64,000 bases of DNA, taken from the NCBI RefSeq assembly GCF_001192835.1, contig NZ_DF968182.1:2947113-3011112 (forward strand). The letters are read 5' to 3'. Numbering within the stretch: the first letter of the stretch is position 1; each line of letters begins with the position of its first letter. The notes beneath the pieces were generated by a model. It saw only the letters and a list, made by a program, of their open reading frames with translations. It was not told the DNA's origin and searched no databases. The position numbers were made by a program, and so were the translations under genes. Shown here one piece after another: positions 43,859-48,387 of this stretch. The DNA is from Lentimicrobium saccharophilum (GTDB lineage: Bacteria > Bacteroidota > Bacteroidia > Bacteroidales > Lentimicrobiaceae).

Positions 43859-44050
43859 AGGAAATATTTTTACAAAGATAAAGCAACGGTAATCCGCAAA
43901 CTGAATAAATCTGCCTACGAAAGCTATATATTTGATTTTGAACCTGTACAATAACTTTCAGGTGAATAATATTTAACCCCCTGATTGAAGTAATGTTCAG
44001 ATTCTGTCCTGAAATTGAACCGATGAAAACAGGTTTCTGCAGGAAAAACT

Positions 44051-44058
44051 TATCTTTG
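44051..44058 (+). promoter_or_regulatory. -7 element of the mgtE leader
   Basis: TATCTTTG followed by CACC. Predicts a transcript start near 44064 and a 5' leader of about 115 nt before mgtE. No clear -33 TTTG. Confidence 0.6.
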
Positions 44059-44081
44059 CACCTTCAAACCATTACCCGACC

Positions 44082-44123
44082 ATGAAAGACGACCCCTATT
44101 CGTGTGGCCTGATTAAACACTAA
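44082..44123 (+). CDS. Putative 13-residue leader peptide upstream of mgtE
   Basis: ATG at 44082, TAA at 44121: MKDDPYSCGLIKH. It lies between the predicted start of transcription and mgtE. The Asp-Asp-Pro stretch directly after the start resembles the acidic/proline sequences of Mg2+-sensing leader peptides of enterobacteria, where low Mg2+ destabilises the ribosome. The stop codon sits 1 nt before a hairpin that overlaps an anti-Shine-Dalgarno segment. Being so short, chance occurrence cannot be excluded. Confidence 0.4.
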   Translation: MKDDPYSCGLIKH

Positions 44124-44124
44124 C

Positions 44125-44170
44125 CTGCAGGGGGTTTTGTATCTCCTTGCAGCAAATACCCGTAAGGAGA
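44125..44170 (+). promoter_or_regulatory. Alternative hairpins with anti-Shine-Dalgarno segment in the mgtE leader
   Basis: Hairpin A: CTGCAGGGGG (44125-44134) pairs with CTCCTTGCAG (44143-44152), 10 pairs including two G-U, loop 8 nt. Hairpin B: TCTCCTT (44142-44148) pairs perfectly with AAGGAGA (44164-44170), which holds the mgtE Shine-Dalgarno AAGGAG, 8 nt before the ATG at 44178. The two are mutually exclusive because both use CTCCTT. A strong SD is unusual in Bacteroidota. Confidence 0.55.
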
Positions 44171-44177
44171 ACAATCA

Positions 44178-45521
44178 ATGGGTGAAACTGAAATCACATT
44201 TTTCGAAGATCTGATCAGGGATAAAGACTGGAGCAGCCTCAGGCATGAGCTTGAGGATATGGATCCCATCCTGATTGCAGAGATTATTGACGAGTTGCCC
44301 GAACAGGACGACATCATCCTGTTCCGGTTATTGCCAAGAGAACAGGCAAAGAATACCTTTCAGTACCTCCCGCACGAGAAGCAGGAGCAGATTATCGAGG
44401 GGCTGGCCAAAAATGTAAACAGGGTAGCGGGGCTGCTCAACGACCTGGATCCCGACGACCGTACGGCGTTTTTCGAAGAACTTCCCGGCAACATTACCCA
44501 GCGGCTGATACAGCTTTTGTCGCCGGAAGAGCGGCTCATTGCCACCCGCCTGCTCGGATATCCCGAACACAGCATCGGAAGGTTGATGACGCCCGAATTT
44601 GTTGCCGTGAAGCCCGATTTTACCGTCGAGCAGGCGTTGAAACATATCCGGATGTACGGCAGGGATTCTGAAACACTCAACCTGATTTACGTGGTTGACG
44701 ACAACTGGAAACTGATCGATGATATCCGCATCAGGGAAATCATTCTGGCCGATCCCGGGCAACATGTCCGGGACCTGATGGATGAGCATTTTGTTTCGCT
44801 CTATGCTTTCGACGATCAGGAAGTAGCCATCCGGGTTTTCCAGGATCAGGACCGCATCGCGCTGCCGGTGCTTGATTCGGAAGGACTGCTGCTGGGGATT
44901 GTAACGGTTGACGACGTGATGGACGTTGTGGAAGAGGAAACCACCGAAGACTTTCACAAATTCGGATCATTCCAGGCGGCCATTGTCAATCCGCTGAAAG
45001 CCAGAATCTTTTTTCTTTATCAGAAACGTATTCTTTGGCTGATCGTACTGGTGTTTATGAACGTCTTTTCGGGGGCGGCCCTGGCAACCTTCGAAGGTGT
45101 GATACAATCAGCTGTATCGTTGGTATTCTTCCTTCCTTTGCTGATCGGTAGCGGAGGCAATGCCGGAGCACAGTCGGCAACCCTGATGATCCGATCCCTG
45201 GCGATCGGTGATGTGGAAACCAAAGACTGGTTCAGGCTGCTGGGCAGGGAGTTCCTGGTTTCCTTCCTGCTTGGAGTCACCATGGCGGCCGGTGTTAGCC
45301 TGATTGCCAGTGTACGCGCCCCGCAATATATTGTTGTGGTAGCCGCCACTATGATTCTGGCAGTAATGTCAGGCAGCCTGATCGGCATGATCACCCCTTT
45401 TATTTTCACCAAACTGAAACTCGATCCGGCCACGGCCAGTGCTCCGCTGATTACTTCCATTGCGGATATTTCCGGAGTAGTAATCTATTTTTCAATTGCT
45501 TCCTGGTATATGGGTCTGTAA
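44178..45521 (+). CDS. mgtE: MgtE-family magnesium transporter
   Basis: 447 residues. N-terminal acidic superhelical domain (~1-125), two CBS domains (~128-250; DDNWKLIDDIRIREIIL, LLLGIVTVDDVMDVVEEE), a connecting helix and five membrane helices (~280-445) with the conserved GGNAGAQSATLMIRSLAIG near residue 328 (pore region). Mg2+ channel/transporter of the inner membrane, gated closed by Mg2+ bound at the cytosolic domains. The leader upstream suggests an additional level of control of translation. Confidence 0.96.
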   Translation: MGETEITFFEDLIRDKDWSSLRHELEDMDPILIAEIIDELPEQDDIILFRLLPREQAKNTFQYLPHEKQEQIIEGLAKNVNRVAGLLNDLDPDDRTAFFEELPGNITQRLIQLLSPEERLIATRLLGYPEHSIGRLMTPEFVAVKPDFTVEQALKHIRMYGRDSETLNLIYVVDDNWKLIDDIRIREIILADPGQHVRDLMDEHFVSLYAFDDQEVAIRVFQDQDRIALPVLDSEGLLLGIVTVDDVMDVVEEETTEDFHKFGSFQAAIVNPLKARIFFLYQKRILWLIVLVFMNVFSGAALATFEGVIQSAVSLVFFLPLLIGSGGNAGAQSATLMIRSLAIGDVETKDWFRLLGREFLVSFLLGVTMAAGVSLIASVRAPQYIVVVAATMILAVMSGSLIGMITPFIFTKLKLDPATASAPLITSIADISGVVIYFSIASWYMGL

Positions 45522-47650: not shown

Positions 47651-47787
47651 ATGCTCATCCCTTTTTAATTCAACAAAGGAGAAATGCTCAATCCTGCACA
47701 TGAAGGACTAAGCGATCGGCGCATAAAAGTACAGAAAAAGGATGCAAAACTGCGGGCAGGAAAATTCAGGAATAATCTAAATTGCCC

Positions 47788-47795
47788 TACTTTTG
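47788..47795 (+). promoter_or_regulatory. -7 element of mntP
   Basis: TACTTTTG, 8 bp before the mntP ATG at 47803. It overlaps an alternative in-frame start at 47782, so 47803 is the start. Confidence 0.6.
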
Positions 47796-47802
47796 CACGC
47801 AT

Positions 47803-48387
47803 ATGGAGTTGCTGACGCTATTTCTGCTGGCCTTAAGCCTTTCGTTTGATTCGTTTGCCGTATCGGTAAGCAGCGGACTGTTGCTGCCCGGTATCCGGTT
47901 TCCGAAAGCGGTCATCATTGCCCTCAGCCTGGCTTTTTTTCAGGCTTTTATGCCGCTGCTCGGCTGGACCGCCGGCACAGGCATCCGCAACTACCTGGCC
48001 GACTACGACCATTGGATTGCCTTCGGGCTTTTATCACTCCTGGGTATTAAAATGATCACGGAAAGCCTGAAAGCGGATGAAGAAAGGAACGGGTTCAATC
48101 CATTAAAACCGGCAGTGCTGCTGACCATGTCGCTGGCAACCAGCATCGATGCCTTTGTAGTAGGAATCAGTTTTGCCCTTATCGAAACACCGGACACCCC
48201 TTTCTGGCTGGCGATACTTATTCCGGTGCTGATGATAGGAAGCGTCACCTTCATCATGTCGATGCTGGGCATTCTTTTCGGAAAAAAAGCAGGAAGCAGA
48301 CTCGGTAAACGAATGGAGATGCTTGGCGGACTGATCCTGATCGGAATTGGTGTTAAAATTCTTGTTGAGCATTTAAATTTTCTATAG
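47803..48387 (+). CDS. mntP: Manganese efflux pump MntP
   Basis: 194 residues with six membrane helices. LALSLSFDSFAVSVSSGL (~8-26) and LTMSLATSIDAFVVGISFAL (~110-130) are the two repeated halves with the conserved Asp in each. Exports Mn2+. Nearly leaderless: the -7 element lies just upstream of the ATG. Confidence 0.93.
   Translation: MELLTLFLLALSLSFDSFAVSVSSGLLLPGIRFPKAVIIALSLAFFQAFMPLLGWTAGTGIRNYLADYDHWIAFGLLSLLGIKMITESLKADEERNGFNPLKPAVLLTMSLATSIDAFVVGISFALIETPDTPFWLAILIPVLMIGSVTFIMSMLGILFGKKAGSRLGKRMEMLGGLILIGIGVKILVEHLNFL

Follow-up and report, generated by a model that had tools for sequence, protein, structure and literature searches.

Salmonella encodes, upstream of the P-type transporter MgtB, the short leader open reading frame (uORF) mgtQ. 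Placed between mgtC and mgtB, two genes of one operon, mgtQ has 8 residues and a strong Shine-Dalgarno (SD) sequence of its own; both Asp2 and Glu5 are needed, the Pro codon exerts its effect by pairing as RNA, and two alternative sets of stems, 1:2 with 3:4 or 2:3, decide access to the mgtB site, according to the account given in PMC8092293. In E. coli, low Mg2+ is described as favoring ribosome drop-off at EPDP in MgtL, and EttA as countering pausing at early acidic repeats, the latter tested with a designed NKDEPD motif (PMC11282234). The leader presented here, which lies 5' of mgtE or corA in Bacteroidota, resembles mgtQ, as far as the latter is described in PMC8092293, in several respects: a Mg2+ transporter gene is preceded by a short uORF that has acidic residues near its start and a single Pro codon, stems 1:2 and 3:4 (in mgtQ numbering) compete with 2:3, the last stem masks the ribosome-binding site, the Pro codon lies in segment 1, and control is, here by prediction, at translation. 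Unlike mgtQ, the Bacteroidota leader stands in front of mgtE or corA, its uORF in the DNA studied here has 13 residues and no preceding SD, its stop codon abuts or lies in the first hairpin arm, and one subclass lacks the first helix. With the E. coli and Salmonella leaders mgtL (of mgtA) and corL (of corA), it would share repression of a Mg2+ transporter gene upon completion of the uORF and, with MgtL, acidic and Pro residues; corA is a target of both corL and the Bacteroidota leader, whereas mgtL and corL are described as acting by Rho-dependent transcription termination and the Bacteroidota leader is predicted to mask a start region (PMC11282234, PMC11552253). The M-box (ykoK) riboswitch likewise places mgtE-type genes under cis-regulation by Mg2+, and its Mycobacterium tuberculosis form is reported to control a small upstream ORF, but the M-box is a metal-binding aptamer and the Bacteroidota leader has no Rfam match (PMC12810186). 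The mgtE motif of Thioalkalivibrio also encloses the mgtE SD and start codon, and the passages of PMC11109978 that describe it present it as a riboswitch candidate of that genus only and do not list it as a uORF candidate. For Bacteroidota, an account of the Bacteroides thetaiotaomicron transcriptome speaks in general of short ORFs within long 5' UTRs (PMC7366714), and searches of open-access papers yielded no Mg2+ leader peptide from the phylum, in line with an earlier reading made from the sequence alone (hereafter the sequence-only reading), which knew of no such example. The conservation, coding pattern, covariation, geometry, and gene association of the Bacteroidota leader are computational results; we consider it quite likely that it is a translational attenuator that reads the translation of an acidic leader peptide and raises MgtE or CorA at low Mg2+.

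Within the window, that is the whole stretch of 64,000 nucleotides of Lentimicrobium saccharophilum DNA that was analyzed, the leader and its presumed target are laid out as follows.

44051 to 44058, + strand: −7 promoter box TATCTTTG, read from the sequence and taken by us to be of the Bacteroidota type (consensus TAnnTTTG).
44082 to 44123, + strand: leader uORF MKDDPYSCGLIKH, with its stop TAA at 44121 to 44123 (direct reading, conservation, codon pattern).
44091 to 44097, + strand: segment 0, the Asp-Pro codons GACCCCT, predicted partner of 44130 to 44136 (GGGGGTT) in the ribosome-free OFF state (folding, swap test).
44125 to 44134, + strand: segment 1 (arm 1) CTGCAGGGGG, partner of arm 2 in the predicted ON hairpin (direct reading, covariation, folding).
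44143 to 44152, + strand: segment 2 (arm 2) CTCCTTGCAG, with arm 1 and arm 3 as alternative partners (swap tests, covariation).
44162 to 44170, + strand: segment 3 (arm 3) GTAAGGAGA, the SD-like mgtE start region, partner of 44142 to 44150 in the predicted OFF hairpin (swap tests, covariation, folding).
44178 to 45521, + strand: mgtE, a Mg2+ transporter gene and the presumed regulated gene (TIGR00400; Pfam MgtE, MgtE_N, and CBS).

The mgtE product scores 395.5 bits against TIGR00400 (cut-off 232.75), and because the −7 box sits at 44051–44058 the leader is predicted to be ~113 nt long. The sequence-only reading had proposed a leader of ~115 nt with a 13-codon uORF beginning Met-Lys-Asp-Asp-Pro, followed after a single nucleotide by a 10-bp hairpin whose CTCCTT could instead pair with the mgtE SD, the two structures excluding each other, and this layout was borne out. 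The uORF (ATG AAA GAC GAC CCC TAT TCG TGT GGC CTG ATT AAA CAC TAA; 13 codons and the stop) is separated by C44124 from the hairpin 44125–44134:44143–44152, in which 2 of the 10 pairs are G.U; TCTCCTT (44142–44148) forms 7 perfect pairs with AAGGAGA (44164–44170), a helix that can be lengthened by G44149.U44163 and C44150-G44162; and both hairpins use 44143–44152. A short acidic uORF, whose translation is suggested by its codon pattern, lies directly upstream of a Mg2+ transporter gene. Folding of the whole leader is unremarkable (z −1.53; 17/200 shuffles equally good), whereas the hairpin of arm 2 with the start region, folded alone, reaches z −2.74 (1/200 shuffles), and the weight of evidence for a leader element comes from comparison between genomes. 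In the ON fold of the window, TACCCGT (44157–44163) also pairs over the mgtE start codon (ATGGGTG, 44178–44184), which leaves the SD-like AAGGAGA mostly in a loop; the same two words can be read by eye in L002, L003, L004, and L011, all close relatives. This pairing counts against the mechanism as drawn, and may reflect either an additional control or an error of the model. About 2.3 kb downstream of mgtE is an ORF (47782–48387) that we take to resemble the manganese exporter MntP.

Among the mgtE relatives listed (80 loci of the 210 stretches encoding a relative, L040 and L060 being left out as incomplete), the nearest is 99% identical and belongs to a metagenome-assembled genome (MAG) named Lentimicrobium sp. 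An acidic uORF was accepted in 61 of the 78 other listed loci (the detector had flagged 63, of which L058 and L071, with non-ATG starts, were excluded), and the leader was absent or not accepted in 17 of the 78. In 18 further genomes with mgtE at E <= 1e-60, a set that overlaps the listed loci (G048 is the contig of L009 and G051 that of L019), 8 showed it on inspection by eye and 10 did not. With the detector restricted to ATG, such a uORF was found before 62 of 82 mgtE-like ORFs and, as background, before 8 of 299 further genes from these loci (mgtE genes removed), and in the strict form, M[DE][DE] with the stop 35–75 nt before the gene, before 46 of 82 versus 0 of 299. The mgtE-leader peptides, of 9–20 residues, mostly read M-[DEK]-[DE]-x-[PS] and are followed as a rule by arms of the form CTGTAAGGGG, CTCCTTACAG, and TGTAAGGAG; an M[DE][DE] start is found in 47/62 mgtE and 40/41 corA leaders, that of the window being MKDD. 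Of the representatives, 32 of 39 for mgtE and 25 of 33 for corA have a −7 motif no more than 60 nt upstream of the uORF, against a shuffle mean of about 1. The uORF is identical at 42/42 nt in L002, L003, L004, and L011, the third positions of whose mgtE genes are 63–88% identical, and at 34, 38, and 40 of 42 nt in L006, L008, and L009 (for L006 the mgtE comparison was out of register). Mean entropy at positions 1, 2, and 3 of codons 2–3 is 0.48, 0.09, and 1.17 bits in the 39 mgtE representatives and 0.00, 0.10, and 0.99 bits in the 33 corA representatives, a pattern that would fit a translated stretch doubling as pairing RNA. The leader is also present in MAGs labeled Delongbacteria (two) and Lentisphaerae (one; L065, L069, and L072 in all), with G+C-rich arms and altered pairs in the Delongbacteria, through either transfer, ancestry, or misbinning.

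The pairing of the segments was assessed by swap tests, in which regions placed at constant distances from the uORF and from the start of mgtE were compared for duplex energy with their own and with swapped partners, using 39 representatives (<80% identity) out of 62 mgtE leaders including that of the window. Own partners were favored for 0:1 (−10.28 versus −8.87 kcal/mol), 1:2 (−12.38 versus −10.40 kcal/mol), and 2:3 (−11.86 versus −9.51 kcal/mol), with 0/2000 permutations in each case; among the control pairs of this set, 0:2 and 0:3 gave no signal and 1:3 a weak one (29/2000; z −2.8 and −2.3). In alignment A1, changes were two-sided in 8 of 11 pairs of helix 1:2 and in 7 of 10 pairs of helix 2:3, levels reached by 1/500 and 4/500 shuffles, respectively. 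Swap tests and covariation support the predicted helices 1:2 and 2:3, and of the sequence-only reading the comparison between genomes bears out the acidic uORF, the two helices that exclude each other, and the Mg2+-transporter context. Conservation resides mainly in the uORF codons and the arms, and the loops are variable. A column-based search for the 0:1 helix on the MAFFT alignment found nothing, probably because the pairing register slides, and duplex swap tests were therefore used instead.

The same leader precedes corA genes, which were first reached via the arm pattern and a covariance model at L086, L088, and L091. Pfam identifies the L088 protein as CorA (178.4 bits; cut-off 27), and this protein scores 117.7 bits, under the cut-off of 200.75, against the NCBIfam corA equivalog; that of L086 is 78% identical to it, and that of L091 was recognized as CorA by eye. 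The corA upstreams numbered 60, made up of 42/42 order hits and 18/41 phylum hits (a further one, G165, counted among the order hits); 43 were flagged by the detector, and after choices made by eye, with the flagged L122 and L160 excluded, an acidic uORF was accepted in 41/60, the leader being absent or not accepted in 19/60. Peptides such as MDDYHPDS, MDEGPYHSRINY, and MDDYYYSLVLN are encoded by these uORFs, which have 8–30 residues and end 35–96 nt before corA. Under the same region rules as for mgtE, with 32 representatives (L148 was excluded, its segment being too short), own partners gave −14.51 versus −7.72 for 1:2 (490/496 pairs better with their own partner) and −12.63 versus −7.80 for 2:3 (479/496), with 0/2000 permutations for both. 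The leader is thus common to two unrelated Mg2+ transporter families, MgtE and CorA. The genome G579, outside the class of the window, has two corA copies (L088 and L091), both bearing the leader; by eye, neither CorA gene of the genome to which the window belongs (L171 and L172) has such a uORF.

The swap tests also point to a helix that the sequence-only reading had not included, namely that between segment 0 (44091–44097) and 44130–44136 in arm 1. Its signal depends on Pro at codon 5: 0/5000 permutations in 37 mgtE leaders and 108/5000 in 10 corA leaders with Pro-5, versus no signal in 22 corA leaders of the other kind (3424/5000), and across the whole corA set of 32 it was not significant (111/2000). 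Codon choice tracks arm 1, GTCCCG occurring with GGGAC in L110 and GGACCG with GGTCC in L043. The mgtQ layout, in which stems 1:2 and 3:4 alternate with 2:3 and the start region is in the last stem, is found in the window and the Pro-5 leaders, whereas the non-Pro-5 corA leaders are without its first stem; the Pro-5 leaders, window included, form a four-segment switch resembling that of Salmonella mgtQ.

These Pro codons bear on the alternative that the leader is an amino-acid or EF-P attenuator sensing charged tRNA (Pro, Tyr, or His) or stalling at Pro instead of Mg2+. Pro at codon 5 in 37/39 and Tyr at codon 6 in 29/39 mgtE representatives would fit such a sensor, and the Salmonella leader mgtP is said in PMC8092293 to respond to charged tRNA-Pro. 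However, Pro-5 is absent in 22/33 corA representatives and replaced by Ser in the mgtE leaders L064, L067, L074, and L079, there is no run of a single residue, only the acidic residues 2–3 are near-constant, the Pro codons are also engaged in RNA pairing, and the target genes encode Mg2+ transporters, all of which makes this alternative improbable. Of the acidic and Pro-containing peptide that had been proposed as the sensor, the acidic residues 2–3 are the near-constant part and Pro is not essential.

A second alternative is reinitiation or translational coupling, whereby ribosomes finishing the uORF would go on to mgtE and the hairpins would only set the spacing. The short distance from the uORF stop to mgtE, 41–65 nt in the 62 leaders, is what such coupling would need; yet the stop mostly adjoins or falls inside the covarying arm 1 (as in CTG TAA GGG, where it lies within the arm), arm 2 covaries with two partners, and coupling leaves both the 2:3 helix and the acidic start unexplained, so that we regard it as very unlikely.

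The SD-like sequence itself calls for comment, as Bacteroidia ribosomes reportedly do not recognize SD sequences, their anti-SD being normally sequestered, although ribosomes lacking bS21 use the extended SD of rpsU, a type of control that appears confined to rpsU in F. johnsoniae, according to the account in PMC9976891. An SD motif precedes 69/82 mgtE-like ORFs versus 23/299 other genes, and one might suppose that it is read by special ribosomes with an exposed anti-SD, such as those lacking bS21, the arms tuning that interaction. This too has very little probability, since the motif precedes only 27/41 corA genes bearing the leader, complementarity to arm 2 reaches past the SD (TGTAAGGAG), the rpsU-type control appears to be so restricted in F. 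johnsoniae, and a group of corA leaders (L152–L158 and L161, called Flavobacterium-type as a guess from kinship and pattern) has the same architecture with no SD, its arm 3 being TTTTGAA, immediately before the ATG and complementary to arm 2. On the simplest reading, the SD-like sequence before mgtE is kept as arm 3 of the switch. The SD as masked element, as first proposed, therefore survives in that AAGGAGA pairs with arm 2, but what is masked is better termed the start region in general, because Bacteroidia ribosomes reportedly ignore SD sequences and Flavobacterium-type corA leaders have none. In L123, another corA leader without an SD motif, arm 3, adjacent to the start codon, is nonetheless a match for arm 2 (GCGGATGC with GCATCCGT).

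Database and genome scans gave few matches. Rfam includes an M-box model, and no riboswitch family matched the leader at gathering thresholds, no family did so up to E 10 over 43950–44300, and on the loci of 20 relatives none matched it, the only hit being an unrelated cobalamin riboswitch (89.8 bits, downstream of mgtE at L026:5173–5396). A direct metal or ligand riboswitch with an incidental uORF, suggested by the structured leaders of Mg2+ transporters such as M-box RNAs, is highly improbable given the lack of an Rfam match in the window and these 20 loci, the variable loops, the concentration of conservation in uORF codons and arms, and the coding pattern. The exact arm pattern matched in 6 of 198 genomes of the order, before mgtE in G193 and G115 and before corA in G097; the 3 others look like chance. 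The covariance model gave 4 matches in 3 of 395 phylum genomes, its sensitivity being low since it scored 10 candidates in each genome, and one match (L090) is regarded as false; when 150 of 1057 candidates from the genome of the window were scored, it returned only the mgtE leader and a chance-level match at E 9.9. No intrinsic terminator-like site was found in the leader.

The attenuator that we favor would work as follows. Arms 1 and 2 would pair once transcribed, forming an ON hairpin that exposes the mgtE start region, whereas pairing of arms 2 and 3 would mask it (OFF). In the window, the Asp-Asp-Pro codons would pair with arm 1 and free arm 2 for arm 3, so that an untranslated leader would be OFF; a ribosome that is held at the acidic codons, or falls off there again and again, would cover those codons and not arm 1 (ON), and one reaching the stop would cover arm 1 (OFF). 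The leader would in this way read the ease of ribosome passage through an acidic peptide and set translation of the Mg2+ transporter. Low Mg2+ would destabilize ribosomes at the early acidic or Asp-Pro codons, as described for MgtL and proposed for mgtQ, and more MgtE or CorA would presumably result. We infer Mg2+ as the signal from the parallels with MgtL and mgtQ and from the two unrelated Mg2+ transporters that are the targets. The window's genome also encodes an EttA equivalog (940.2 bits; cut-off 806.75).

Partition functions computed for the window agree with these states: the complete leader free of ribosomes is predicted to adopt 0:1 with 2:3, the nascent leader that still lacks arm 3 to adopt 1:2, the leader whose uORF start is masked by a ribosome likewise 1:2, and the leader with a ribosome at the stop 2:3. 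Of the switch logic first proposed, ON with a ribosome at the start and OFF with one at the stop are thus retained in the model, but mere absence of ribosomes is predicted to give OFF instead of ON; the 0:1 helix would make the ribosome-free leader OFF, and ON would then call for a ribosome that stays or cycles at the start, or for a first hairpin that persists kinetically. Across the 39 mgtE representatives, with a state called at >=5 expected pairs, the ensembles predict 2:3 in 37 free leaders and in 38 with a ribosome at the stop, and, before arm 3, 1:2 in 35 (in 38 if a ribosome occupies the start); for the 32 corA representatives the predicted counts are 20 (free, 2:3), 28 or 29 (nascent, 1:2), and 29 (stop, 2:3). 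For the complete leader with an early ribosome at equilibrium, however, 1:2 is predicted to exceed 2:3 in only 12/39 mgtE and 14/32 corA representatives, so that the check by partition function bears out the states in the window and yields no equilibrium ON state for most leaders, in which the ON state would therefore have to be kinetic. In these, the ON hairpin would form first and then be erased by the ribosome completing the uORF. Modeled mean accessibility of the start region shifts little, from 0.27 (early) to 0.22 (stop) for mgtE, with 0.21 for shuffled arm 1, and from 0.39 to 0.33 for corA, with 0.31 for shuffled arm 1; equilibrium accessibility alone predicts no strong switch for most leaders, which counts against the mechanism.

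On balance, the evidence leans toward one SD-independent leader design shared by MgtE and CorA, a widespread Bacteroidota gauge of Mg2+ that acts through an acidic nascent peptide and that evolved separately from the enterobacterial leaders, with the same four-segment layout as Salmonella mgtQ. If so, Mg2+ sensing through destabilized translation of acidic peptides would be a solution that recurs among bacteria rather than one peculiar to enterobacteria, and Bacteroidota would gain a widespread, defined Mg2+ control element with no matching Rfam family. The SD-like sequence of mgtE would then be explained as the third arm of the switch, despite ribosomes that reportedly ignore SD sequences, and the idea is directly testable in laboratory Bacteroides and Flavobacterium.
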